From NCBI GenBank assembly GCA_016124745.1, contig WGNC01000010.1, positions 1-64,000 on the forward strand: 64,000 nt of DNA, given 5' to 3'. The translations under genes were made by a program, and so were the position numbers. Below are positions 36,393-49,176 of this stretch, one piece after another (the first letter of the stretch is position 1; the number at the start of each line of letters is the position of its first letter). Under the pieces are notes generated by a model. That model ran no database searches and was not told the origin of the DNA. It saw only the letters and a list, made by a program, of their open reading frames with translations. This stretch comes from Thiobacillus sp. Lineage in GTDB: Bacteria > Pseudomonadota > Gammaproteobacteria > Burkholderiales > Thiobacillaceae.

Positions 36393-37622
36393 TCAGGACG
36401 TCGACAAAGCGGTGTCCAGCAGCTCGACCCAGTGCCGGACGGGAATCGGGCTGCCGGATTGCAGGTGGGCAAGACAGCCGATGTTGGCGGTGGCGATCAG
36501 TTCGGGCCTGCCAGCCTGCAGGTGGCCGAGCTTGCGTGCCTTGAGCTGGCTGGCCAGCGCGGGTTGCAGGATCGAATAGGTGCCGGCCGAGCCGCAGCAC
36601 AGGTGCTTTTCTGCGACCGGCGTAAGCTCGAAGCCGGCATCGGTGAGCAGGGCCTCGACACCGCCGCTGAGCTTCTGGCCGTGCTGCAGCGTGCACGGCG
36701 GGTGATAGGCGATGCGCTTCGGCGCCGCATGCGCGGCCAGCGCGCTCAGAGCCTCGCGTTCGGTGATCAGCACTTCCGAAATATCCTTCGCCGCAGCGGA
36801 GATGCGCGCAGCCTTTTCCGCATACGCGGAATTGTTGCGCAGCAGCCAGCCGTAATCCTTCACCATGACGCCGCAGCCCGAGGCCGTCATCACGATCGCT
36901 TCCATGCCGGCATCGAGATGCGGGATCCAGGCGTCGATATTGCGGCGTGCGGCGGCGAGACCTGCGTCGCTGTCGTTGAGGTGGTGCGGCAGCGCGCCGC
37001 AGCAGCCGGCTTCATTCGCCGTGATCAGCGAGATGCCGATATGGTCGAGAACGCGCGCGGTAGCGGCGTTGATGTTGGGCTTGAGGCCGGGCTGCACGCA
37101 GCCCTGCAGCACCAGCATGCGGCGGGTATGGCGAGACGCCGGCCAGTCGCCCGCGGCTTCGGCGGCCGGAATGCTTGTTTTCAGGGAGGCGGGCATCAGG
37201 CTGCGCACGCTCTGGCCGAGCTTCAGCGCCGTATTGAACAGCAGCGGCGTGCCGAGACCGGCTTTGAGTGCGGTGCGTGTTGCGGTTTCACTCACGCTGC
37301 GCCCGACTTTTTCCTCGACGACGTGGCGCCCGATGTCGAGCAGCTTGCCGTATTCCACGCCCGACGGGCAGGTGGTTTCGCAGTTGCGGCAGGTCAGGCA
37401 GCGGTCGAGGTGCAGCTGGGTCTTAGCGGTGGGGGTCGCGCCTTCGAGCACCTGCTTCATGAGATAGATGCGGCCGCGCGGCGAATCGAGTTCGTCGCCG
37501 AGCAGCTGATAGGTGGGACAGGTGGCCAGGCAAAACCCGCAATGCACGCAGCTGCGCAGGATGCGCTCGGCGGCGTCGCCATCGGGGGTGTTGCGGAAGG
37601 AGTCGGCGAGATGGGTCTGCAT
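36393..37622 (-). CDS. glcF: Glycolate oxidase iron-sulfur subunit GlcF
   Basis: 409 residues from MQTHLADSFRN. Two ferredoxin-type clusters (CVHCGFCLATCP near residue 25 and CLTCRNCETTCP near 78) and two CCG domains (EAGCCGAL, HLCCGSAG) match GlcF. It passes electrons from the GlcD/GlcE flavins to the respiratory chain. The start lies 1 base after the glcE stop. Confidence 0.95.
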   Translation of the reverse strand: MQTHLADSFRNTPDGDAAERILRSCVHCGFCLATCPTYQLLGDELDSPRGRIYLMKQVLEGATPTAKTQLHLDRCLTCRNCETTCPSGVEYGKLLDIGRHVVEEKVGRSVSETATRTALKAGLGTPLLFNTALKLGQSVRSLMPASLKTSIPAAEAAGDWPASRHTRRMLVLQGCVQPGLKPNINAATARVLDHIGISLITANEAGCCGALPHHLNDSDAGLAAARRNIDAWIPHLDAGMEAIVMTASGCGVMVKDYGWLLRNNSAYAEKAARISAAAKDISEVLITEREALSALAAHAAPKRIAYHPPCTLQHGQKLSGGVEALLTDAGFELTPVAEKHLCCGSAGTYSILQPALASQLKARKLGHLQAGRPELIATANIGCLAHLQSGSPIPVRHWVELLDTALSTS

Positions 37623-37623
37623 G

Positions 37624-38805
37624 TCAGAAATCCGGATACAGCCGGCCCCGATTGAGGATGCCGCCGGGGTCGAAGCGCTGCTTGAGATTGCGGTGCAGGA
37701 CCGACAGCGGCGGCGAGAGCGGCGTGAATGCACCGTCGACCGGTGCCGTGCCGCGGAACAGGGTGGCGTGGCCACCAGCGGTTTTCGCCACCTTGCGCAG
37801 CGTGTCGGCGGCTGCGTCGGAGATCAGCCAGCGCACGGCGCCGCCCCATTCGATCCATTGCGCGTCGCCCAGATGCAGTGGCGGCGCGGTCGGTTTCACC
37901 GACAGTCGCCACAGGCCCTGATTCGAATCCGGCGCGCGCTTGTCGAAAAACGGCGTGGTCTGGTCGCGCAGGCGCTGCCAGAAGGCGGCGGCGTCCTTCA
38001 GGGTTTCGCCACCGAGCCTGGCCTGCGCGGCCTGCACCGCGGAGGCCGCGCCCGACAGCCGCAGCGTCAGCAGGCCGGCGTGCCACGACGTAGCCGACAG
38101 CGGCAGCGGCTGTCCAGCCCACTGATTCATCTTCAGGATGGCGGCGGGTTCGTCGAGTTCGAATTGCAGCGTGGTTTCAGTCGCCGGCTTCGGCAGCACC
38201 TTGAGCGAGACTTCTGTGATGAGGCCGAGCGTGCCGAGCGCGCCGACCATCAGCCGCGACACGTCGTAGCCGGCGACGTTCTTGATCACCTGGCCGCCGA
38301 AGCGCAGTGGCTGGCCGCTGCCGTCGATGATGCGCACGCCGAGCACGAAGTCGCGCGCGGCGCCGGCGTAAGGTCGGCGCGGGCCGGACAGGCCGGCGGC
38401 GATGCTGCCGCCGAGCGTGGCATGGGTCGGTTTGGGCGTGACGTTCGCTCCCTCTCCCGCAAGTGGGAGATAAGCAGCGACTTGCCCGCTTGCGGGCTTA
38501 GTCGATTGCTTAGCAGTTCCATCAGGGTTGGGGAGAGGGCGCTCTCCGAAGTGGGGCGGCTCGAACGCCAGCATCTGACCCTGCTCGGCAAGCAGCGCTT
38601 CGATTTCGGCGAGCGGGGTGCCGGCGCGCGCGGTCAGCACCAGCTCCTTCGGCTGGTAGTCGACCACGCCCGTGAGCGTGCGCGTGGCGAGCACCTCGCC
38701 TTCGTCGGCGTTGCCGTAGAAGGTCTTGCTGCCGCCGCCCTGGATGACGAGCGGGGTGCCGCTCGCCTGCGCGGCCTGGATGCGGTCGATGAAGGCGTCC
38801 AGCAT
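37624..38805 (-). CDS. glcE: Glycolate oxidase FAD-binding subunit GlcE
   Basis: 393 residues, about 40 longer than usual for GlcE. The FAD-binding part (VIQGGGSKTFYG, GVVDYQPKELVLTARAGTPLAEIEALL) and ATLGGSIAAGLSGPRRPYAGAARDFVLG are conserved. Between EPPHFG and ATLGG, normally joined or nearly so, sit 41 extra residues translated from a repeat (38422-38544). The ATG shares one base with the glcD stop (TGATG). Forms the glycolate:acceptor oxidoreductase with GlcD and GlcF. Confidence 0.93.
   Translation of the reverse strand: MLDAFIDRIQAAQASGTPLVIQGGGSKTFYGNADEGEVLATRTLTGVVDYQPKELVLTARAGTPLAEIEALLAEQGQMLAFEPPHFGERPLPNPDGTAKQSTKPASGQVAAYLPLAGEGANVTPKPTHATLGGSIAAGLSGPRRPYAGAARDFVLGVRIIDGSGQPLRFGGQVIKNVAGYDVSRLMVGALGTLGLITEVSLKVLPKPATETTLQFELDEPAAILKMNQWAGQPLPLSATSWHAGLLTLRLSGAASAVQAAQARLGGETLKDAAAFWQRLRDQTTPFFDKRAPDSNQGLWRLSVKPTAPPLHLGDAQWIEWGGAVRWLISDAAADTLRKVAKTAGGHATLFRGTAPVDGAFTPLSPPLSVLHRNLKQRFDPGGILNRGRLYPDF
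38422..38544 (-). repeat. 123-bp palindromic repeat inserted in frame in glcE
   Basis: Exactly 41 codons, encoding ERPLPNPDGTAKQSTKPAS and the rest up to PTH. Contains TCCCGCAAGTGGGA and CCCGCTTGCGGG hairpins and ends GCTCCCTCTCCC / GGGGAGAGGGCG. These ends match the repeat at 15389-15462. It breaks a conserved FAD-binding loop but leaves the frame open. Confidence 0.8.
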
Positions 38806-40259
38806 CAGAACCTCGGCAACTCGGGATGCGGCAACTGGCCGCCGTGGACATGCATCGCGCCCCACTCGGCGCAGCGGTGCAGTTCGGGCACGGCCTTGCC
38901 GGGGTTGAGCAGCCTGTCGGGGTCGAACGCGGCCTTCACCTCGTGGAAGCGGGTCAGTTCCGGGGTGGCGAACTGCGTGCACATCTGCCTGATTTTCTCC
39001 AGTCCGACGCCGTGCTCGCCGGTGATGGTGCCGCCGACTTCGACGCACAGTTCCAGGATCCTGGCGCCGAATTCTTCGGCCTTGTGCAGGCCATCGGGCT
39101 GGTTGGCATCGAACAGGATCAGCGGATGCAGGTTGCCGTCGCCGGCGTGGAACACGTTGGCGACCGCGAGGCCGAATTCCGCGCTCATCTCGCCGATGCG
39201 TTTCAACACGTGCGGCAATTGCCCGCGCGGGATGGTGCCGTCCATGCAGTAATAGTCGGGGGCCAGCCGCCCGACCGCCGGAAACGCCGCCTTGCGCCCG
39301 GCCCAGAACTTGAGACGCTGTTCCTCGCTCTCGGCAGTGCGGATCTCGATGGCGCCGGAGGCTTCGAGCACCTTGCGCACGGTGAAGATGTCGGCCGAGA
39401 CTTCCTCGTTGACGCCGTCGACTTCGCACAGCAGCAGCGCTTCGCAGTCGAGCGGATAACCGGCGTGGACGAAAGCCTCGGCGGCCTGGATGGCGAGCCG
39501 GTCCATCATTTCCAGGCCGGCGGGAATGACGCCGGCGGCGATGATGTTGCCGACCGCGGCACCCGCCATCGCCACGTCGTTGAACGCCGCCAGCACCACC
39601 TGCGCGCGCTCGGGGCGCGGCAGCAGCTTGACCGTGACCTCGGTGATCACCGCCAGCATGCCTTCCGATCCGGTCAAGAGCGCGAGCAGATCGTAGCCGG
39701 GTGCGTCGAGCGATTCGCCGCCGATTTCGAGCAGCTGGCCATCGATGGTCCAGGCGCGCAGGCCGAGGATGTTGTGCACCGTGAGACCGTATTTCAGGCA
39801 GTGCACGCCGCCCGAGTTTTCCGCCACATTGCCGCCGATCGAGCAGGCGATCTGCGAGGATGGATCGGGCGCATAGTAGAGGCCGTGCGATGCGGCGGCT
39901 TCGGAAATGGCCTGGTTGCGCACGCCGGGTTCGACTGTCGCGGTACGCGCCAGCGGGTCGATGGCCTTGATGCGGTTGAGCTTGGCCAGCACCAGCAGCA
40001 CCGCACCGTCGACCGGCAGGGCACCGGCGGAGAGGCCGGTGCCGGCGCCGCGCGCCACCACGGCCACCTTGTGCTGATGGCACAGCTGCAGGATCGCCGC
40101 CACCTGCGCCTCGTTCTCCGGCAGCGCCACGACGTCGGGCGTGTTGCGGTAGGCCGCCAGGCCGTCGCTCTCGAACGGCAACAGGTCCTCGCGTTCGTTG
40201 AGCACGCAGTGCGGCGGCAACAGGCGACGCAATTGGGAGAGGAAGGCGGGGCTGAGCAT
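38805..40259 (-). CDS. glcD: Glycolate oxidase subunit GlcD
   Basis: 484-residue flavoprotein of the FAD-linked oxidase family. VVARGAGTGLSAGALP binds the FAD pyrophosphate, IACSIGGNVAENSGG follows, and the C-terminal domain ends with GEHGVGLEKI. Oxidises glycolate (or D-lactate in relatives) to glyoxylate at the membrane with GlcE/GlcF. Glycolate is the product of RuBisCO oxygenation after dephosphorylation, so the gene fits an autotroph. Confidence 0.95.
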   Translation of the reverse strand: MLSPAFLSQLRRLLPPHCVLNEREDLLPFESDGLAAYRNTPDVVALPENEAQVAAILQLCHQHKVAVVARGAGTGLSAGALPVDGAVLLVLAKLNRIKAIDPLARTATVEPGVRNQAISEAAASHGLYYAPDPSSQIACSIGGNVAENSGGVHCLKYGLTVHNILGLRAWTIDGQLLEIGGESLDAPGYDLLALLTGSEGMLAVITEVTVKLLPRPERAQVVLAAFNDVAMAGAAVGNIIAAGVIPAGLEMMDRLAIQAAEAFVHAGYPLDCEALLLCEVDGVNEEVSADIFTVRKVLEASGAIEIRTAESEEQRLKFWAGRKAAFPAVGRLAPDYYCMDGTIPRGQLPHVLKRIGEMSAEFGLAVANVFHAGDGNLHPLILFDANQPDGLHKAEEFGARILELCVEVGGTITGEHGVGLEKIRQMCTQFATPELTRFHEVKAAFDPDRLLNPGKAVPELHRCAEWGAMHVHGGQLPHPELPRF

Positions 40260-40275
40260 GGCGTCGGGTGAAGGT

Positions 40276-41610
40276 TCAGGCCGCCAGTTTAGCCGGCCTC
40301 GTTTGCGCGTGCGAGGGCGCGAGGCGCCGGTAGGCTTCCGCCAGCGCGCCGTCGCCGCCGACGTTGCCGGGGAAGATCACCACTGGTATCTGCGGCAGGC
40401 GGTGTTCCGCAGGCGTCTGCACCACGGTGACGCCGGGCAGGATCTGCCCCAGCACGCGCGACGCGGTCAGCGCCAATCCTGTCGACAGCACGTCGTTGGA
40501 GGTGATGCCGCCCTTGCTGACGAGAAAGCCCAGCGTCGTCGGCAATCGCCGCACAACGTCCATCAGCGTGCCCGACACGATGTCGCCGAAGGCCAGGCGC
40601 TCGGCCACGCTGGCGAACTGCAATTCGGCACGGCTGGTAAACACCACCGGGGTGAGGCCGCTCGCATGGGCGTGGGCGATACTCGCCGTCAGTTCGTCGA
40701 CCAGCGCGGCGCGCTCTGCCGGCAGGCGTCCAACGTCGAGCGGCAGGCCGACCGTGCCGCGTTCCTTCAGCAGCGCCGACAATTGCGCGGTCGTCTTGGC
40801 GACGTGCGAGCCGACGATGACGGCCCCCGGTCGCTGCTCGCGCACCAGGGTCGAAAACGCGTTGGCGGGCACCGGCTGCGGCGGCAACTTCGCCAGTGCC
40901 GTCAACAGCGAGGCCGCGCTGCGGAAAAGCAGGCGCTTGCCGGCCGCTGCAGCCGCCAGCGCGGCATCGGCGAACAACTGGTAGTCGGCGGCCGTTTCGC
41001 CATCGACCACGCCGACCGCGTTGTCGTGCAGCGCGGCGAGCCAAGCGCCGGCCTTGCCACCGCGCAACTCGGCCAGCGACAGGCGTTGCACCGAATCGGA
41101 AGCGAGGCGGCCAGCTGTCTTTTCCGCTACGTAATCCGGCAAGAACGCGGTGCGGTAGCCGAACACCGAGTCGCGCGCGAATTCGGTGTCATGCGTCGGC
41201 ACCGGCTTGCCGTCGACCATCAGGTAATGCGTGCTGTCGCGCGTGATGCGCCCGCCCTCGAAGAATGCCGGCGTCAGGAGCGTCGCGTCGAACGGCCCGA
41301 GCACCGCGTCCATGACGTCGGTTTCCACTGGGTAATGGCCGCGCAGCGTCGAATCCGAGCGCGACACGAACAGCACCGGCCCGGCGTAATCGGTGAGTGC
41401 GGCCCTGAGGTTGACGCACACTTCGCGCGTCAGCTCGGTGGCGCGTGCCGCATCCATGCCGCGCGTGTTGGTGAGGATGAAGAACAGCGGTGCGGCGTCG
41501 GCCAGCGCCGTCTTCAGTGTGGCGACATCCCAGCGCGTCAGCAGCAGGCAGGAATGCACCGTCTGCGAGCCGGTGGGGTCGTCGTCGAGAACGATGATTT
41601 TCGGGTTCAT
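40276..41610 (-). CDS. DUF1537 four-carbon acid sugar kinase family protein
   Basis: 444 residues with the family N-terminal IIVLDDDPTGSQTVHS and RSDSTLRGHYP, and the C-terminal FLVSKGGITSNDVL nucleotide-binding part. Characterised members phosphorylate D-threonate, D-erythronate or 3-oxo-tetronate at O4. Here the neighbours are glycolate oxidase (downstream, 17 bases) and a TPP enzyme (upstream), not the usual dehydrogenase/aldolase partners, so the substrate is open. ATG start. Confidence 0.88.
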   Translation of the reverse strand: MNPKIIVLDDDPTGSQTVHSCLLLTRWDVATLKTALADAAPLFFILTNTRGMDAARATELTREVCVNLRAALTDYAGPVLFVSRSDSTLRGHYPVETDVMDAVLGPFDATLLTPAFFEGGRITRDSTHYLMVDGKPVPTHDTEFARDSVFGYRTAFLPDYVAEKTAGRLASDSVQRLSLAELRGGKAGAWLAALHDNAVGVVDGETAADYQLFADAALAAAAAGKRLLFRSAASLLTALAKLPPQPVPANAFSTLVREQRPGAVIVGSHVAKTTAQLSALLKERGTVGLPLDVGRLPAERAALVDELTASIAHAHASGLTPVVFTSRAELQFASVAERLAFGDIVSGTLMDVVRRLPTTLGFLVSKGGITSNDVLSTGLALTASRVLGQILPGVTVVQTPAEHRLPQIPVVIFPGNVGGDGALAEAYRRLAPSHAQTRPAKLAA

Positions 41611-41626
41611 GGTATTGCCTTGATTG

Positions 41627-41663
41627 ATCCGCGAATGCCCTTCGCGGGCATTCGCGGATTTTT
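41627..41663 (+). terminator. Strong hairpin in the spacer of the TPP-enzyme operon
   Basis: Perfect 14-base arms ATCCGCGAATGCCC and GGGCATTCGCGGAT around TTCGC, with a T tract on the plus side. Both flanking genes run on minus, where no T tract follows, so it is wrongly oriented for ending their transcript. It more likely stabilises or cuts the mRNA between the two genes. Confidence 0.55.
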
Positions 41664-41664
41664 G

Positions 41665-43905
41665 TTAAGCCGCTGCCTGCTGCAGCATCGCCAGCGCGCG
41701 TTCGTGCATCGCCTCCGCATTCATGCTGTTGAAGTCGAACAGCTGCTGCGGGTTGGCGGTGGTCTCGCCGCGCTTCCAGCAGAACACGTCGCGCTCGGCG
41801 GCCCGGCTGCGCAGCATCACCGGCTCGAGCGGCGCCGAGGGGCCGCCGCTGACGCCGATCAGCGCGTCGCCGTGGAACAGCGCCTTGAACGCGGCGTCAT
41901 CCATGAAGCGGCCGTCGGGTTCCGACACGCTGTTCCACAGCACGTCGCCCGGGCGGTACAGGCGGCGCGGGTTGACCACGGCGACGATGCGCGAGCCGAT
42001 GCCGGCGGCAGCCAGCTTGTCGGCAGCGGCGAACACCGGCTGCAGCGCCATGTCGCCGGTGACGGCGAACACCACGGTGCGCGATCCCGCTGCTTGATTT
42101 GAAGGCAATTCCCTCAGCACCATCGCGCCGTCGTCGATCGCCTGGCGGCTTTGCGCCATGGTGGTGTGGATTGGCAGCGGCGACTTCGAGGCGGTGATGA
42201 CGATGCCCTTGTTGTGCTGCTTGAGCGCCCAGTCGTAACTCGCCTGGATCATGTTTGCGTCGACCGGGAACAGCGGGTAGACGTTGCCGTTGCGCATCAT
42301 CGCGGCGAAGTAGCTCTCGATCTCGGGGCGCTGGTGGGTCCAGCCGTTGCGGCCCTGCTCGAGCGCGCCGGCGGTGAACAGGCACACCGTGGCAGGCGTC
42401 GGGCGACGCAGCTCGGCCATCGCCTGGGTCACCGTCTGCCAGATCGGCAGGCCGTTGATGGCGAAGGATTCGTAGCTCGCCCACAGGCTACGGCCGCCGA
42501 ACAGCGCGACGCCCACCGCGAGGCCGGCACAGGCGTCCTCGTTGAGCGGCTCGTAGACCTGTCCGGACGGGCCCTGGAAGTAGAGTTCGTCCGCGGTCGG
42601 ATGGCGGATCGTCAGCGCCTTGTTGATGTTGGCCATGGCCGAGGCCTCGTTGCCGTCGGCGTTGGTGACGACGAACATCGGGTCGCGCTTGCCCACTTCG
42701 CCGACCACGTGGCCGAAGGCGGTGGTGGGGATGTGGTTTTCGCCGACCGCGAATTCGGTCAGCGGCAGGCCGTCGAGGCTGGGCAGGTCGCGCACGCCTT
42801 CGGTCACCGCCACGCGCGCAGCCGGGCCGCCGCCGGCATGGCGGAAGTTCTCGCGCGTGATTTTCCAGGCCTGGATCGGCAGCGCGCGGCGCTGCAGGCC
42901 GCCCTTGACGTCGTCGGAATCGAGCGTGTGGTGCGCATAGAGATTGTGCGACTTGGCGCCGGTGGCGTGCACGCCGGCGCCTTTGAGTTGCTTGATGATG
43001 AGACAGGCGCGGCGGCCGTTCAGCGCGCTCTTCGCAGCGGCATCGGCAGCCTTGAGCACGGCGCCGGTGAAGGCCATGCGCGCGGCGAAGCCGAACGTGG
43101 TGCTGTCGGTATACACCGGCGCATCGGGCGTTTCGGCAAACTCGCGGGCATCGATCAGGTGTACCTCCTCGAAGCCGTGCGCGCGCCAGTAGTCGGTCAT
43201 GCGCGTGTTGTCCCACAGCGAGACCATGCTGTGGTGTTCCTGCGAATAGCCGTTCCACACCAGCACCGGCAGGTAGTTGGTGATGTCGGGATACGCGGTG
43301 GCGAAGTGCTGGAACGCGCTCATGATGTAGGGTTCGCCGAGGCCGCCGTCGCCGATGGTGACGGGGAACAGCTTGTCGCGGTTCAGGTAGGCGCCGGCCA
43401 TCGCGAAGTGTTGCCCCTGTCCGAGCGGGCCGGCGGGTGCCAGCAGGCCGGGGATCGCGCCCGACAGGTGCCCCAAAAGACCGTGGCGCTCGCGGAAGCG
43501 TGTGCGCATGTCGGCAACGGTATGGATGTCCATGTCCTCAAGCGAGGTGTCGAGGAACATCGCCGAATAGAAGCCGGGCGCATGATGCCCGACCTCGGTC
43601 ACCATGTTGCGGTGGCCCAGCAGGTGCAGCGCGGCGACCGCGTCGGCGCTCGAGGCGAAGCCGCCGGGGTGGCCGGAAGACTTGCTGCCGGTGACCTGCA
43701 GCGTCAGGTAGCGCAGCGCGTCGGCCGCCAGCAGGGTCTGGTAGATCGCGGCTTCGCGGGTCGCGTCCGGCAATGCGGGCTGGTTCGGGCCCAGCAGCGG
43801 CGCAGCGCCGAGGCGGTCGATTTCCGGGTAGCTGTCGGCGAAATACTGGATGCCTTCGCAGAATGCGGGGAGGTTTTCGGGGGTGGATTGCATCAGGGCG
43901 CTCAT
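41665..43905 (-). CDS. Transketolase/phosphoketolase-superfamily TPP enzyme
   Basis: 746 residues from MSALMQSTPENLP; AAAGGAACCGCG precedes this ATG, and the operator upstream excludes the longer reading. TPP features: SGHPGG, GHHAPGFYSAMFL, PAGPLGQGQ, and IGDGGLGEPY with VLVWNGYSQ about 30 residues on (the GDG-N diphosphate motif). SLWASYESFAINGLPIWQ and VFAVTGDM recall phosphoketolase C-terminal parts, but the protein is neither a standard transketolase nor a standard XFP. It probably cleaves or transfers a two-carbon unit. First gene of an operon with the DUF1537 kinase and glcDEF. Confidence 0.8.
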   Translation of the reverse strand: MSALMQSTPENLPAFCEGIQYFADSYPEIDRLGAAPLLGPNQPALPDATREAAIYQTLLAADALRYLTLQVTGSKSSGHPGGFASSADAVAALHLLGHRNMVTEVGHHAPGFYSAMFLDTSLEDMDIHTVADMRTRFRERHGLLGHLSGAIPGLLAPAGPLGQGQHFAMAGAYLNRDKLFPVTIGDGGLGEPYIMSAFQHFATAYPDITNYLPVLVWNGYSQEHHSMVSLWDNTRMTDYWRAHGFEEVHLIDAREFAETPDAPVYTDSTTFGFAARMAFTGAVLKAADAAAKSALNGRRACLIIKQLKGAGVHATGAKSHNLYAHHTLDSDDVKGGLQRRALPIQAWKITRENFRHAGGGPAARVAVTEGVRDLPSLDGLPLTEFAVGENHIPTTAFGHVVGEVGKRDPMFVVTNADGNEASAMANINKALTIRHPTADELYFQGPSGQVYEPLNEDACAGLAVGVALFGGRSLWASYESFAINGLPIWQTVTQAMAELRRPTPATVCLFTAGALEQGRNGWTHQRPEIESYFAAMMRNGNVYPLFPVDANMIQASYDWALKQHNKGIVITASKSPLPIHTTMAQSRQAIDDGAMVLRELPSNQAAGSRTVVFAVTGDMALQPVFAAADKLAAAGIGSRIVAVVNPRRLYRPGDVLWNSVSEPDGRFMDDAAFKALFHGDALIGVSGGPSAPLEPVMLRSRAAERDVFCWKRGETTANPQQLFDFNSMNAEAMHERALAMLQQAAA

Positions 43906-43921
43906 CGCGGTTCCTTTCATA

Positions 43922-43990
43922 ATGTGAAAATGTTTCACATCATGTGAAACGATGGCTGTATTGAAGCACCATTGGCCCTCAATTTCACAT
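43922..43990. promoter_or_regulatory. IclR-type operator array in the divergent promoter
   Basis: ATGTGAAA (43922-43929), TTTCACAT (43933-43940) and ATGTGAAA (43942-43949) form two overlapping palindromes. A further TTTCACAT lies at 43983-43990 and TTTTCACTTTATGAAAA spans the IclR start. This array sits between the TPP-enzyme operon and the IclR gene and very probably controls both. Confidence 0.8.
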
Positions 43991-44011
43991 TGCGTGATAA
44001 ATTTTCACTTT

Positions 44012-44776
44012 ATGAAAAACTCGGTCTCATCGATTCAGGTGCTCGACCGCGCCATGTCGCTGGTCAACATCCTCGTGCGTTCACCGGGGCCGATCAGCCT
44101 CACCCGGCTGGCCGAGCAGGCCGGGCTGCACACGGCGAGCGCGCATCGCATCCTCGGCGCACTGATGGCGCACGGCCTGGTCGAGAAAACCGGCGCCGGC
44201 GAATACGACCTGGGGGTGCGCTGGCTGGAAGTGGGCAATCGGCTGCGGGCGCGCCTGAACATCCGCCAGGTGGCGATGCCCTTCATGCAGAAGCTGGCCG
44301 AACTGACCGGCGAGACCGTCAATCTGATCGTGCGTCGCGGCGACGAGGCAGTGTACGTCGAGCGCGTGTCGGGCGGCCAGACCCTGATCCAGGTGGTCCA
44401 GGTGGTGGGCGCGCACGCACCGCTGCACGTCACCGCCGTCGGCAAGATCTTTCTCGCCGAGGACAGCGCCAGCGGCGTGATGGGCTACGCCGATCGCACC
44501 GGCCTGCCGGCCTACACGCCGAATACGCTGACCACGCTGGAACGCCTGCAGGCCGAACTGGAAACCATTCGCCGCGAGCAACTGGCACATGACCGTGAGG
44601 AAGCGGAACTGGGGGTGGCCTGCATCGGCGCGCCTATCCGCGATGCCGACGGCAAGCTGGTCGCCGGGCTGTCGATCTCCGCGCCGGCCGACCGCCATAA
44701 ACCGGGGTGGATCGAGGCGCTTCAGCATGCTGCCGCGCAGACCGGCGCCGCGCTGGGCTATCTGGCCGGGGCCTGA
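44012..44776 (+). CDS. IclR-family transcriptional regulator
   Basis: 254 residues from MKNSVSSIQVLDRAMSLV. Winged helix at 10-70 (ISLTRLAEQAGLHTASAHRILGAL), IclR ligand domain from ~85 (HVTAVGKIFLA, ACIGAPIRD, VAGLSISAP). IclR proteins respond to small acids such as glyoxylate. It is divergent from the TPP enzyme-glcDEF operon across the palindromic operator, so it most likely senses a metabolite of that route. Confidence 0.92.
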   Translation: MKNSVSSIQVLDRAMSLVNILVRSPGPISLTRLAEQAGLHTASAHRILGALMAHGLVEKTGAGEYDLGVRWLEVGNRLRARLNIRQVAMPFMQKLAELTGETVNLIVRRGDEAVYVERVSGGQTLIQVVQVVGAHAPLHVTAVGKIFLAEDSASGVMGYADRTGLPAYTPNTLTTLERLQAELETIRREQLAHDREEAELGVACIGAPIRDADGKLVAGLSISAPADRHKPGWIEALQHAAAQTGAALGYLAGA

Positions 44777-44873: not shown

Positions 44874-47003
44874 TCAGTCACCGCCGGGGCCGTTGTGGCA
44901 GTCGTAGCAGCCCACTTTCTGGCCGGCCGTGTAGCTCACCGTCCTGCCCTCGACGCTGAAGCTGCGCGCGGCTTTTGCCGTGGACAGGGCGCCGCCGCGG
45001 TAGTCCGTGCCATGGCAGTAGGCGCAGGCCGACGCGCCATGGTCGGCAGTGTTGCCGTGCGCGCTCACCCAGGCGCTGCCGATGGTATGCATGCCGTGCG
45101 GGCCGCCGGTGGCGGTGGTGGGTACCGACTTGTGACAGGCCGTGCATTCGCCGATGGTGCCGGCACGCCCCTGGACATCCTGCGCCAGCAGGTTGTCGTT
45201 CCGATGCGAACTCGGATACTCGGCATGGGTGGCGCCATGACAGGCCTCGCACTGCAATCCGCCGTGGCCCTTGCTCATGCGGAACAGCGAGAAACCCGCC
45301 AGCGGCGTGTCGGGATTGCTGGCGTAGCGCGTGTCCTGCCATTTTTTCAGGATGCCGGTGCTGGAGACGGCCATGGTTTCGCGCTTGCCGTCGTGGTGGC
45401 AGGCCTGGCAGTTGGGCTGGTCGAGCCAGCCGACGCGGCCCGTGCGGCCGACGTTGGACATGTTGCCGTGGCAGGACTGGCAGTTCATGGTGGCGTTGCC
45501 CTGGGCGTCGACTGCGTTGCCCATGACGCCACGCAGGCATTTCGTCACCGAGCCCGGATGGCACTGATAGCAGGCGCTGCGGTTGTCGATGCTGTCCAGC
45601 GTAGCGCCGGTCTTGGCATCCTTGACCGAGGCATGGTGGCTGTGGACGGCCTCGGTCAGGGGGGTGATGCCGGTGATGCCGGTCCCCGGGAGTGCGTTGG
45701 AAGCATGGCAGGCGGCGCACAGCACGGGCTTGCCCTGCTTCGCCGAGGCCAGCAGCCCGGTGGACGGATAGCCCTTGGCCTGGAGGGCGCTGGTGTAGGC
45801 GGGCGTGCCCAACTGCTTTTCGTCATGCAGGCGCAGCACGTTCATCTTGTAGTCGCGATCCGGGTCGATCTGGTTGACCCATCCGGCCCGTGGCATGGCG
45901 TCGGGCGAGGAGTTGGAAGCATGACAGGCGGCGCAGCTCATTTCGTCCGAAACGGGCAGCACGACGCGCGCCTGCGCCAGCACCTTGCCGGTCGTGTCGC
46001 GGGCGACCACCTTCACCAGCGGGTAGGAGTTGAACTGGAGGGCATCATCGTAGGGCGTGATGGGAATGCCGTCAGACACGAACATCTTGTCCGTCGCGTT
46101 GAAGCCCATCGACTGCGGGACGAACGATGGCGTCATGTTGCCGGCGAGGCCGGTGTCCGGGGTCAGGTCGGCGCCGAACAGGGACTTCGCGTAATCCCAG
46201 AAATTGCTCTTGTTGTAGGAGCGGCTGTTGACCGAGCCGTCCGGGTCGGCCATGGCCTCATAGGTCATGCTGACGCCCTGGGTGACCACCTGGGTGCTGG
46301 TGTTGTTGACGAGTTGTGCGCGCAGGTTGTTGAACGGCGGCAGGATCGAGAAGACCGAGTAATCGGCGTCCATGCAGTGCATGCCGAGGTCGTTCCAGGC
46401 CAGCAGCGTGAAACCGCCCTGGGTCGTCGTGCCGCCCGTGCCGGTGGTGGCTTGCACGGTGATCTGGACGACGACCGTCCGGGCGCTGTCGCGCACAGTG
46501 ATAGAAGTGGTACCCACTGCCTTGGCCTTGACCAGGATGGTGGACCCGCTCAAAGAGACCGTGGCCACATCGCCATTGCTGATGGAGATGGAGACGCTGC
46601 CCGACGCGTTGGCGACGCTGAAGCTGCCGCTCTGGCCGGGAATCAGCATCAGGTTGGCAGGCGACACGGTCATGCCCGTCCCTGAACTGGCGGAGGTGAC
46701 GGTTACCGTGACCTTGACGCTTCGGACGGAGTCCCTGACGGTGACCGTGGTCGTGCCGGCTTTCTTGCCTTCGAGCTTCAACTGGCCATCGCTGATCTCG
46801 GCGGTCACCACATTCAGGTTGGAAGAAGTCGCCCTCACCTCGCCGCGCGCATTGGACACCTTGGCCGAGCCATGCTGCCCGACCTGAAGCGTAACGCGCG
46901 TGGGGCTGACCGTGAGGCCACTGGTGGCTGCTTCGGCCATGACGGCCCCGATCAGCAGTAACAGTGGCAACAAAAGCCACCGGATGTTGAATATGCTATG
47001 CAT
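44874..47003 (-). CDS. Exported nonaheme cytochrome c with two Ig-like domains
   Basis: 709 residues: signal peptide (WLLLPLLLLIGAVMAEA), two related BIG2-type beta domains (VSPTRVTLQVGQ, VSPANLMLIPGQ, each ending in TSITVRDS-like strands), a conserved AWNDLGMHCMDADYSVFSILPP domain, then nine CxxCH heme sites: CAACH twice, CYQCH, CQSCH, CQACH, CEACH, CTACH, CAYCH, CYDCH. Probably an outer-surface or periplasmic electron conduit. The ATG at 47003 has AAGGAG upstream. Divergent from a two-component system that likely controls it. Confidence 0.85.
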   Translation of the reverse strand: MHSIFNIRWLLLPLLLLIGAVMAEAATSGLTVSPTRVTLQVGQHGSAKVSNARGEVRATSSNLNVVTAEISDGQLKLEGKKAGTTTVTVRDSVRSVKVTVTVTSASSGTGMTVSPANLMLIPGQSGSFSVANASGSVSISISNGDVATVSLSGSTILVKAKAVGTTSITVRDSARTVVVQITVQATTGTGGTTTQGGFTLLAWNDLGMHCMDADYSVFSILPPFNNLRAQLVNNTSTQVVTQGVSMTYEAMADPDGSVNSRSYNKSNFWDYAKSLFGADLTPDTGLAGNMTPSFVPQSMGFNATDKMFVSDGIPITPYDDALQFNSYPLVKVVARDTTGKVLAQARVVLPVSDEMSCAACHASNSSPDAMPRAGWVNQIDPDRDYKMNVLRLHDEKQLGTPAYTSALQAKGYPSTGLLASAKQGKPVLCAACHASNALPGTGITGITPLTEAVHSHHASVKDAKTGATLDSIDNRSACYQCHPGSVTKCLRGVMGNAVDAQGNATMNCQSCHGNMSNVGRTGRVGWLDQPNCQACHHDGKRETMAVSSTGILKKWQDTRYASNPDTPLAGFSLFRMSKGHGGLQCEACHGATHAEYPSSHRNDNLLAQDVQGRAGTIGECTACHKSVPTTATGGPHGMHTIGSAWVSAHGNTADHGASACAYCHGTDYRGGALSTAKAARSFSVEGRTVSYTAGQKVGCYDCHNGPGGD

Positions 47004-47083
47004 CTTGAAACTCCTTGATCCGATAAAGGGAGATGGAGCTGACTCCATGTTGAATCAGCTTAAATCCCTCAAATTAACGGGGT

Positions 47084-47122: not shown

Positions 47123-47785
47123 ATGCGCATCCTGATCATCGAAGACGATCTGCAACTGGGGGACGGCCTCAGCAGTGGCCTGCGTTCGCTGGGCTTTGCG
47201 CCGGATTGGGTCTGCGAACCGGTGGCGGCCTGGCATGCCTTGATGGGCGAGGACTATGACGCCGTGGTGCTGGATCTGGGTTTGCCCAAGGAGGACGGCG
47301 TCTCCCTGCTGTCGCGCCTGCGTGCCCGCCACGACCCGGTCCCGGTCCTGATCCTGACGGCGCGGGACGGCAAGGCGGACAAACTGGCAGGGTTCAATGC
47401 CGGGGCGGATGACTACGTGGTCAAGCCGGTGGACATGGAGGAACTGGCGGCCCGATTGCATGCCCTGATCCGGCGCACCCAGGGGCAGTTGCGCGCCCGT
47501 CTGGCGGCAGGGGGCATCGAACTGGATCCGCAGGCGCGACGGGTCTGGCTGGACGGTGATCCCGTCAACCTGTCGGTGCGGGAATACGCGCTGCTGGAAA
47601 AGCTGATGTCCAACATCGGCCGCGTCCTCTCCAAGGCCCAACTGGAGGCGGCACTGTACGGCTGGGGGGAGGGTGTCGAAAGCAATACCGTTGAGGTCCA
47701 TATCCATCACCTGCGCCGCAAGCTGGGCAGCGAGCGCATCGTCACGCTGCGCGGCATCGGCTACATGATCGAGAGCGTGTGCTGA
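47123..47785 (+). CDS. OmpR-family response regulator (QseB/PmrA type)
   Basis: 220 residues. Receiver domain with D51 as phospho-acceptor (VVLDLGLP), the conserved Lys in VVKPVD, and a C-terminal winged helix (VNLSVREYALLEKLM to LRRKLG...TLRGIGYMI). It overlaps the kinase gene (GTG inside its last codons). The CTTAAG boxes immediately upstream fit its PmrA-like type and imply autoregulation. Confidence 0.93.
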   Translation: MRILIIEDDLQLGDGLSSGLRSLGFAPDWVCEPVAAWHALMGEDYDAVVLDLGLPKEDGVSLLSRLRARHDPVPVLILTARDGKADKLAGFNAGADDYVVKPVDMEELAARLHALIRRTQGQLRARLAAGGIELDPQARRVWLDGDPVNLSVREYALLEKLMSNIGRVLSKAQLEAALYGWGEGVESNTVEVHIHHLRRKLGSERIVTLRGIGYMIESVC

Positions 47786-49176
47786 GATCCCTCCAGGCCC
47801 GGCTGATCACGGCGGCCGTTCTTGTTCTCGTGCTGTGCGCCCTGCTCGCCGCGCTAGGGAGCTACCGGGCGGCCATTACCGAGGCGGACGAGATTCTGGA
47901 CGCCCAGCTGGCCCAACTGGTCAAGACGCTGCTGTTCCTGAGCCAGGTCAACGGTGGCCGCGCCGCGGGGGACATCGGCAACGGCTTGCAGTCGGATCAC
48001 AGCTACACGACTTTCCAGATCTGGCAACTCAAGGAACCCGGCCCGGGGGGCGTAGGGGTCTACCTGTCCAACCCAGCCGACACGCGGCCCTTTCCCCGGC
48101 TCATGCTGCGTTCGGGGGACATGGACAATCAACGTTCGTTCGACCGCAAGGATGGCTTCAGCCAGGCCGAAAGCGACGGGCGCACCCTGCGGGTCTTGGC
48201 CAGCACCTCGGCCGATGGCGTCTATCGGGCCATTGCCGGTCAGGATCTGCGCGACCGGCGAGAGATGGCGGAGGGCATCGCCCGCAGCAACGTTCGACCC
48301 TATCTGCTGGTACTGCCGCTGGGAATCCTGGCCCTGGTCGGGCTCATCTACCAGAGCCTCAGGCCGATTCGCCGCCTCACGCTGGAAGTCTCGTCCCGCG
48401 AGCCGACCCATCTTGCTCCCCTGGCAATCAGCGATGTGCCGAAGGAACTCGTTCCGCTGATCCGGGCCCTGAACGACCTGCTGCAACGTTTGCAGACCGC
48501 CATGGAATATGAGCGCCAGTTTACCGGCGCCGCCGCCCACGAGCTGCGCACACCGATCGCCGCCCTGCACGCCCAGCTCGATGCCATGCGTCTCGCGGGC
48601 GACAAGGAAACCCGCATTCGGGCCCATCAACAGGCTTCCGCCACGGCAATCCGGCTGGCGCGGCTGGTCAATCAGCTGCTCACCCTGAGCCGGTTTGATG
48701 CCGAGTCCCTGCCATCCGGACACACGACGGACCTTGCCGAGCTGGCGCGTGAGCTCTGCCAGGACATGGGGCCGGCCGCCATCAAGAAGGACATCGATCT
48801 GTCGCTGCACGCCCTGACCGCCCGGGTGCGCGGCGACGAAGACGCCATGCGCATCCTGCTGCGCAACCTGCTCGACAACGCCCTGCGCTACACGCCCAAG
48901 GGCGGACGTGTCGAAGTCAGTGTCGGGGCGATGGACGGCATGGTCCGCCTGGTGGTGGCAGATAGCGGTCCCGGCGTGCCGCCGCAACGACGCGCGGCCC
49001 TGGGGCAGCGTTTCAACCGCCTCGACCAGATGGATGGCACCGGTGTCGGCCTGGGGCTCTCCATCGTGCTGGGTATCGCCGATCAATTCGAGGGCCGGAT
49101 CATTTTCGGAACGGGTCTGGACGAGCAGGGTCTGGCAGTGACGGTCGAGTTTCCGGGAAGTGGCGAAGCGAATTGA
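47779..49176 (+). CDS. QseC/PmrB-type sensor histidine kinase
   Basis: 465 residues: N-terminal membrane segment, periplasmic domain (~30-170), second membrane segment (LVLPLGILALVGLIYQSL), then HAMP, the HisKA box AAAHELRTPIAAL (His near 254) and HATPase (NLLDNALRYTPKGG, GVGLGLSIVLGI). Partner of the preceding regulator. The stimulus is unknown; the divergent multiheme cytochrome suggests a metal or redox cue. Confidence 0.93.
   Translation: MLRSLQARLITAAVLVLVLCALLAALGSYRAAITEADEILDAQLAQLVKTLLFLSQVNGGRAAGDIGNGLQSDHSYTTFQIWQLKEPGPGGVGVYLSNPADTRPFPRLMLRSGDMDNQRSFDRKDGFSQAESDGRTLRVLASTSADGVYRAIAGQDLRDRREMAEGIARSNVRPYLLVLPLGILALVGLIYQSLRPIRRLTLEVSSREPTHLAPLAISDVPKELVPLIRALNDLLQRLQTAMEYERQFTGAAAHELRTPIAALHAQLDAMRLAGDKETRIRAHQQASATAIRLARLVNQLLTLSRFDAESLPSGHTTDLAELARELCQDMGPAAIKKDIDLSLHALTARVRGDEDAMRILLRNLLDNALRYTPKGGRVEVSVGAMDGMVRLVVADSGPGVPPQRRAALGQRFNRLDQMDGTGVGLGLSIVLGIADQFEGRIIFGTGLDEQGLAVTVEFPGSGEAN

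Follow-up and report, generated by a model that had tools for sequence, protein, structure and literature searches.

A conserved operon joining a distinct thiamine pyrophosphate enzyme and a DUF1537 kinase to glycolate dehydrogenase: a possible route of glyoxylate recycling in RuBisCO autotrophs

In the stretch of DNA analyzed here (64,000 nucleotides of contig WGNC01000010.1 of Thiobacillus sp., assembly GCA_016124745.1; below, the window), the genes for the three subunits of glycolate dehydrogenase, glcD, glcE and glcF, are preceded by genes for a thiamine pyrophosphate (TPP, or ThDP)-dependent enzyme and for a kinase of the DUF1537 family, which raises the question of what the last two proteins contribute to the metabolism of glycolate. 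The order in the direction of transcription (TPP enzyme - DUF1537 kinase - glcD - glcE - glcF) and the divergent gene for an IclR-family regulator, both given in a preliminary description of the locus, were confirmed; the operon occupies the minus strand of contig C2 in a genome of 3.35 Mb and the regulator gene the plus strand. The preliminary description also suggested that the operon might encode a new route for the salvage of 2-phosphoglycolate, a process that, as passages of a 2020 study of one organism put it, has received scarce attention in chemolithoautotrophs (PMC7486775). The comparative genomic analysis presented here indicates that the operon very probably has a role in how autotrophs with RuBisCO metabolize glycolate and glyoxylate. 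The make-up and conservation of the gene set, the co-occurrence of its members and the active-site residues are directly established, and the chemistry proposed below is built upon them.

The five genes are likely to form a single transcription unit, since the gaps between them are short (54 bp between the TPP enzyme and kinase genes, 16 bp between the kinase gene and glcD, a 1-base overlap of glcD and glcE, and 1 bp between glcE and glcF). The arrangement is not due to chance, because it recurs in many genomes. A scan of contigs yielded at least 539 stretches encoding relatives of the TPP enzyme, from which the best 80 were taken, comprising 38 proteobacterial and 42 cyanobacterial loci; judging by record titles and affinities, the proteobacterial loci come from Thiobacillus, Sulfuriferula, Gallionellaceae, Thiogranum and other gammaproteobacteria, some of the titles being doubtful (such as Rhizobium for L028). 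The conserved co-occurrence that the preliminary description proposed to look for is apparent in these loci: the kinase gene follows the TPP enzyme gene within 0.6 kb in 37 of the 38, the remaining contig (L040) ending within the TPP enzyme gene, glcD follows in 32, and all three glc genes are present in 28. Among the other loci, contig ends truncate L025, L030, L079 and L081, glcD is present only in part in L032, glcF is cut by the contig end in L050, no glc match was found on the remaining contig of L085 (3.1 kb) or L093 (1.5 kb), and none within the flanks of L041, L049 and L073. A divergent IclR match accompanies the cluster in 31 of the 38 loci, is missing from L044-L049 and could not be judged in L062, which is too short. 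Twenty of these loci (L024-L043) are Thiobacillus-like and 84-93% identical, so they weigh little as independent evidence; the best named match of the TPP enzyme, among the matches listed, is one of them (Thiobacillus record L024, 92%). At the level of genomes, the TPP enzyme was detected in 18 of the 25 that belong to the window's genus, several of the remainder being incomplete, in none of 16 other genomes of the order, and in 3 of 398 Pseudomonadota genomes, the window's genome included; the kinase, at E <= 1e-30, is present in the same three genomes and in no others of this sample. A search for phage-borne copies gave 28 pattern matches, among which tblastn recognized no relatives.

The pairing of the two enzymes extends to the cyanobacterial phylum. 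The TPP enzyme query matched 112 of 291 genomes, and 96 were left when 16 weak matches, read as canonical phosphoketolase, were set aside. Counting co-occurrence on the whole DUF1537 family was uninformative, as PF07005 is present in 279 of the 291 genomes, and the count was therefore repeated with the close kinase subfamily (489 bits or more), found in 102 genomes: 95 genomes encode both proteins, one (G574) the TPP enzyme only, seven the close kinase only, and 188 neither. Fisher values for this co-occurrence take no account of how the genomes are related and serve as description only. A diverged kinase (37-54% identity) occurs in 37 more, small genomes that lack the TPP enzyme and, judging by their size, presumably belong to alpha-cyanobacteria, which brings the kinase subfamily to 139 of 291; across the two phylum samples, this subfamily was detected only in carriers of the TPP enzyme and in cyanobacterial genomes. 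Eleven loci from the 37 small genomes were inspected. In five (L152, L155, L157, L160, L162), glcE- and glcF-like genes flank the kinase gene, which is on the opposite strand; the GlcE- and GlcF-like proteins are 31-33% and 49-53% identical, respectively, to those of cyanobacterial locus L061. Some of these genomes thus link the kinase to the oxidation of glycolate although they lack the TPP enzyme. In two more (L158 and L159), it adjoins a gene for an FMN hydroxy-acid dehydrogenase, the L158 protein being below the NCBIfam cut-offs, and in L153, L154, L156 and L161 it is beside neither kind of gene. In trees of the TPP enzyme and of the kinase, compared without a formal congruence test, all proteobacterial rows cluster together at 100% in each, with similar subgroups. 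In the kinase tree, the proteobacterial group has eight cyanobacterial neighbors, five from TPP enzyme carriers (L106, L130, L131, L132, L143) and three from genomes without it (L145, L146, L147); L163 and L164, whose genomes have no TPP enzyme, and the rows from small genomes are placed outside. Joint transfer of the two genes between proteobacteria and cyanobacteria, in either direction, is plausible given these topologies.

The metabolic setting was characterized in 24 genomes chosen as carriers (17 proteobacterial and 7 cyanobacterial), along with control genomes. The RuBisCO large subunit (PF00016) is over the cut-off in all 24, with best scores of 440-474 bits; the matches of this model in control genomes were taken for RuBisCO-like proteins. 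Glyoxylate carboligase (Gcl, TIGR01504) is over the cut-off in none of the 24 (best score 371.8 against 711.2); one of the 14 control genomes passes, the output not giving which, and Escherichia coli K-12 has gcl. Malate synthase was found in three carriers and not in the other 21, and a DUF1537 kinase in all 24. Thus, of the salvage route suggested earlier, the link to salvage gains support from the RuBisCO and Gcl counts and from the linkage of kinase and glc genes in small-genome cyanobacteria. The part concerned with chemistry, that is, the transfer of a two-carbon unit to glyoxylate and the action of the kinase on a four-carbon acid, can be put forward only as a prediction from the sequences, and tartronate-semialdehyde reductase, present in 10 of the 24 carriers, leaves room for another reading.

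As the preliminary description had noted, the TPP enzyme is only distantly similar to transketolase and phosphoketolase. Its best score against the NCBIfam transketolase models is 47.5 bits (cut-off 488), and the six phosphoketolase models (NF003616-NF003621) are all far below their cut-offs (best 91.3 against 777). At the level of Pfam, the gathering scores are passed for XFP (44.9 against 22), Transket_pyr (35.6 against 27) and XFP_N (26.4 against 23.7) and not for XFP_C (14.5 against 23.4). An AlphaFold model (mean pLDDT 80.8) has its best fold match in phosphoketolase (VIA-align Z 37.9, rmsd 3.5 over 660 residues, 19% identity in the structural alignment), followed by pyruvate dehydrogenase E1 (Z 32.3) and transketolases (Z about 29-32), and phosphoketolases are also the nearest PDB proteins by sequence (phmmer 2.2e-24; profile 1.1e-32). 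For a comparison of residues, the three families were aligned with MAFFT, E. coli TktA and the genome's own phosphoketolase serving as references; the column of S385 is not reliably aligned. The residues for ThDP binding and ketol transfer are kept (H79, H107, H146, D186, E191, H320, E456, H524); among them, H79, H107, H146, H320, H524 and E456, the equivalents of transketolase H26, H66, H100, H261, H473 and E411, are invariant across 40 family rows. At R358, H461 and R520 (E. coli numbering), which we take to be the residues holding the phosphate tail in transketolase, the TPP enzyme has T394, A512 and K574, and D469 is replaced by N520. The stretch Q517-G-R-N-G-W-T-H-Q-R526 is invariant in the 40 aligned members; at the corresponding positions, the phosphoketolase of this genome has QDHNGFTHQD, its Q immediately preceded by another arginine, and QDHNG is replaced by QGRNG in all 40 rows. 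The invariant arginines R519 and R526, near the catalytic H524, replace H and D of the phosphoketolase and could bind the carboxylate of an acceptor. Judged by its residues, the TPP enzyme is a catalytically complete yet distinct family. The identification with an ordinary transketolase, which the preliminary description would have taken as a refutation, was rejected on scores and residues, and that with a canonical phosphoketolase on the same grounds and because the genome has a separate, canonical-looking phosphoketolase. The latter is encoded by an open reading frame (ORF) of 808 aa on contig C26 of the window's genome (G000; L171:1680-5379), whose neighbors read, by eye, as acetate kinase and glycogen phosphorylase genes.

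For the kinase, Zhang et al. are said to have described in 2016 the DUF1537 four-carbon acid sugar kinases OtnK and DtnK. The protein from the window is over the gathering scores for both Pfam domains (PF07005, 174.4 against 25; PF17042, 121.5 against 28.3), has the fold of 4xgj, 3dqq, 1yzy and 5dmh, and belongs to a subfamily in which the stretch SRxDSTLRGH is invariant. It does not pass the D-threonate kinase equivalog NF047819 (66.2 bits, cut-off 450) and is 25% identical to E. coli YgbK over 179 residues (E 0.017). According to parts of a 2025 paper on bacterial threonate catabolism, one type of DUF1537 kinase (3-OtnK) acts on 3-oxotetronate, the phosphorylated product being decarboxylated to dihydroxyacetone phosphate (DHAP), and in a second pathway (2-OtnK, 2-OtnC) the last step, which makes DHAP, is catalyzed by an F_bP_aldolase protein beside OtnK (PMC12540250).

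These data can be combined into a pathway. GlcDEF would, as expected from the family, oxidize glycolate to glyoxylate. The TPP enzyme may then take a two-carbon ketol unit from one of the ketose phosphates of the Calvin cycle, namely xylulose 5-phosphate, fructose 6-phosphate or sedoheptulose 7-phosphate, and join it to glyoxylate, giving 3-oxotetronate and the shortened aldose phosphate. The kinase, if it resembles its relatives in substrate, would phosphorylate 3-oxotetronate at C4, and the resulting 3-oxotetronate 4-phosphate, a beta-keto acid, would give DHAP and CO2 either spontaneously or on an aldolase-type enzyme. By analogy, the aldolase genes that twice adjoin the cluster may be counted in favor of the last step: in L066, a gene of the F_bP_aldolase family lies between the kinase gene and glcD (of the NCBIfam models listed, its product passes TIGR00167 alone, 217.3 against 215.6), and L061 has the order glcE-glcF-TPP enzyme-class I FBP aldolase (the aldolase passing NF006707, 644.6 against 327; the glcF-like protein reaching 331.5 against 333 and the glcE-like one 149.7 against 284). 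By our own stoichiometry, the net reaction would be glyoxylate + C5 ketose phosphate + ATP -> 2 triose phosphates + CO2, with no NAD(P)H used in the route. We count one of the two glyoxylate carbons as recovered, at one ATP per glyoxylate; the glycerate pathway recovers three of four glyoxylate carbons. Glycolate would in this way be joined to the Calvin cycle without glyoxylate carboligase, a reductase or glycerate kinase. To this reading of the operon as a 2-phosphoglycolate salvage module of Calvin-cycle autotrophs, with the full chemistry via 3-oxotetronate to DHAP, we assign a probability of roughly 0.4. Slightly more doubtful is the broader proposal of a new natural route of photorespiratory recycling ('glyoxylate transketolase' -> 3-oxotetronate -> 3-oxotetronate 4-phosphate -> DHAP) in sulfur-oxidizing and related autotrophs and in roughly one in three of the cyanobacterial-phylum genomes sampled.

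Several observations weigh against the 3-oxotetronate route, as do some of those taken up with the alternatives below. No decarboxylase gene was seen in the operon of the window, and among the 10 proteins of extra genes that were scanned, which do not cover all loci, an aldolase inside the operon was found in L066 only. GlcD is a full-length match that falls under both NCBIfam equivalog cut-offs (797.2 against 897; 537.8 against 567.9). None of the 42 cyanobacterial loci, whose flanks are short in some cases, has a kinase match near the TPP enzyme gene, and L061 alone has glc matches; kinase and TPP enzyme genes less than 3 kb apart were spotted by eye in G640 and G656, positions not having been compared in every genome. 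The close kinase in 7 genomes and the diverged one in 37 are present without the TPP enzyme, and therefore the kinase is not strictly dependent on it. Finally, the active-site loop 513-525 of the TPP enzyme is modeled with low confidence.

The main alternative, which we consider distinctly less probable than the 3-oxotetronate route, is that the TPP enzyme is a glyoxylate carboligase not homologous to Gcl, which would convert two glyoxylate molecules to tartronate semialdehyde and CO2, with a reductase and glycerate kinase completing the glycerate pathway and the DUF1537 kinase acting on glycerate or a by-product. The lack of Gcl over the cut-off in all 24 carriers would be accounted for, and pyruvate dehydrogenase E1, which has the same fold, is a decarboxylase. 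The ten carriers with tartronate-semialdehyde reductase over the cut-off, all betaproteobacterial, point the same way, and the Sulfuriferula locus L046, where genes for this reductase and for a D-2-hydroxyacid dehydrogenase are directly upstream of the TPP enzyme gene, would fit a glycerate route; in L049, the same two genes end about 1.8 kb before it. However, the reductase does not accompany the TPP enzyme as the kinase does, being below the cut-off in 14 of the 24 genomes (best scores of 22-63 bits in G437, a 1.4-Mb assembly, G440, G444, via a chromosome titled complete, and G448), and in six genomes of the window's genus it is about 20-67 kb from the TPP enzyme gene (five genomes) or on another contig (G005). 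In two reductase neighborhoods (L173, L174), no operon query matched adjacent as an operon gene. The histidines of transketolase-type ketol transfer, kept in the TPP enzyme, also argue against a carboligase.

Somewhat less probable still is a second phosphoketolase, forming acetyl phosphate from xylulose 5-phosphate or fructose 6-phosphate under regulation common with glycolate oxidation and with no action on glyoxylate. The nearest solved structures are phosphoketolases, and Y478, N520 and K574, presumably the binders of inorganic phosphate in that family, match phosphoketolase rather than transketolase, which keeps such an activity possible. Two candidate family members, Synechocystis sll0529 and Nostoc alr1850, go by the name pket2 in a source that, in the passages concerned, describes their phosphoketolase activity as awaiting verification (PMC7744508). 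Against this identification stand the low NCBIfam scores, the change of QDHNG to QGRNG in all 40 rows, the canonical-looking phosphoketolase already present beside an acetate kinase-like gene, the lack of acetate kinase and phosphotransacetylase in the operon, and the 21 of 24 carriers in which malate synthase, the enzyme joining acetyl units and glyoxylate, was not found; the DUF1537 kinase would be left unexplained. Least probable of the three is the degradation of a four-carbon sugar acid such as threonate or erythronate, with oxidation by the GlcDEF-like proteins, phosphorylation of the oxo acid and cleavage of a C4 intermediate by the TPP enzyme. DUF1537 kinases do use four-carbon acids, GlcD is just under both GlcD cut-offs, and cyanobacteria are stated, in a part of PMC12540250 (2025) that cites Guo et al. 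2024, to have a three-step L-threonate pathway. Yet GlcE and GlcF are over their equivalog cut-offs (513.5 against 284 and 672.4 against 333 bits), and in a partial search no threonate-dehydrogenase, isomerase or Aldolase_II model passed among the neighbors scanned, one reductase of L046 reaching 196.5 against 350 for threonate dehydrogenase. Moreover, all 24 carriers examined have RuBisCO, so that glycolate made by the cell itself is the expected substrate.

The coordinates of the operon, of the regulator gene and of a palindrome in the divergent promoter are collected in Table 1. The palindrome, GTTTCACATCATGTGAAAC, is a candidate operator, and a start of the IclR gene at 44012 (MKNSVSS...) would suit the locus better, because the palindrome would then fall within a 106-bp intergenic stretch. 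Among 30 upstream stretches (the window and 29 loci), the 19-bp form is present in 7 and the 13-bp core only in 2 more, a count for which no chance expectation was computed. The regulator does not pass its best NCBIfam model, BhcR (NF045644; 175 bits, cut-off 350). Within the IclR ligand site, tabulated in the part of PMC11323563 that also covers the effect of glyoxylate on BhcR, D212, S239 and S241 are kept in the window protein and four relatives, and positions 160 and 161 are A and V. The kept residues are compatible with a small 2-oxo acid as effector, and the protein may control the operon, perhaps in response to such an acid, for example glyoxylate.

Table 1. Positions of the operon genes, the divergent regulator gene and the candidate operator in the window
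Feature	Position	Strand	Remarks
TPP enzyme (P0005), 746 aa	41665..43905	-	ThDP-dependent, transketolase/phosphoketolase superfamily, distinct family
DUF1537 kinase (P0004), 444 aa	40276..41610	-	PF07005 + PF17042; subfamily also found in cyanobacteria
GlcD-like FAD subunit of glycolate dehydrogenase (P0003), 484 aa	38805..40259	-	slightly under NCBIfam cut-offs
GlcE FAD-binding subunit (P0002), 393 aa counted from ATG, the listed translation having one more codon ahead of it	about 37624..38805	-	NCBIfam
GlcF iron-sulfur subunit (P0001), 409 aa	36393..37622	-	NCBIfam
IclR-family regulator (P0006), divergent	43952..44776, start possibly 44012	+	highest-scoring NCBIfam model BhcR, under its cut-off
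19-bp perfect palindrome, 9-bp arms, candidate operator	43932..43950	.	in divergent promoter

Several neighboring genes were recorded in addition. In the window, the protein encoded at 44874-47048 on the minus strand has two repeated segments at its N terminus and, by visual count, nine CxxCH motifs, and is probably a multihaem cytochrome; its gene adjoins ORFs at 47123-49176 that look like a two-component system. Three gammaproteobacterial loci have a GST gene inserted between glcE and glcF, and L072 has an aminotransferase gene. In Sulfuriferula (L046:3496-9826 and L049), a cluster of genes for a transporter, methylmalonate-semialdehyde dehydrogenase, tartronate-semialdehyde reductase and D-2-hydroxyacid dehydrogenase stands by the TPP enzyme operon, and a related cluster is found in G436 (L176) on a contig without the TPP enzyme gene. 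The conserved neighbors of the cyanobacterial TPP enzyme gene (P450, Uma2, COP23, LmeA and amine-oxidase families) were judged uninformative. In G656 (L131:2935-4110), an iron-containing alcohol dehydrogenase-like gene, reaching no NCBIfam cut-off, lies between the TPP enzyme and kinase genes, and in L130 and L132 the kinase gene directly precedes genes that read, by eye, as minC-minD-minE. Other small genomes of the cyanobacterial phylum, probably from non-photosynthetic organisms (L137-L142, L150, L151), have a distant DUF1537 subfamily (23-35% identity in short local matches) beside genes that look, by eye, like pdxA and a single-strand-binding-protein gene.

In the open-licence literature of PubMed Central, no paper was found that joins phosphoketolase, DUF1537 and glycolate, and none on this gene set was noticed among the titles and abstracts listed, which is a weak statement about what is in print. 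The operon offers concrete enzymes for carriers that lack Gcl over the cut-off and mostly lack malate synthase, and a testable function for two cyanobacterial proteins, the phosphoketolase-like enzyme and the four-carbon-acid kinase. If the 3-oxotetronate route is true, the cyanobacterial members of the TPP enzyme family (perhaps including pket2, if of the same family) are not phosphoketolases, and the kinase subfamily of the cyanobacterial phylum is a photorespiratory enzyme. A capture of glyoxylate that has no NAD(P)H need of its own and returns triose phosphates would also be of interest to designers of photorespiratory bypasses.

Among known systems, the regulator resembles BhcR, which controls the beta-hydroxyaspartate cycle, in its IclR type, its best NCBIfam model and the three kept ligand residues, and differs at positions 160 and 161, which are, in the relevant part of PMC11323563, G and I in BhcR and G and A in IclR; bhc genes were not observed in the window's operon. 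With transketolase, the TPP enzyme shares the fold, the catalytic residues and Transket_pyr, and differs by T, A, K and N at R358, H461, R520 and D469. With phosphoketolase (Pfam XFP), it has in common the fold, the ThDP motifs, the catalytic histidines and the Y/N/K anion site, and it is set apart by QGRNG for QDHNG and by a gene context of glycolate dehydrogenase and DUF1537 kinase. The kinase has both Pfam domains, the SRxDSTLRGH stretch and the fold of OtnK and DtnK, whereas its distance from YgbK and from the D-threonate kinase model places it in a subfamily of its own. A physiological parallel is the glycerate pathway and malate cycle of Cupriavidus necator, as described in parts of PMC7486775, in which a GlcDEF-type dehydrogenase likewise feeds glyoxylate in a chemolithoautotroph; in contrast, the carriers considered here have no Gcl over the cut-off and mostly no malate synthase, and they encode a TPP enzyme and a C4-acid kinase beside glcDEF.

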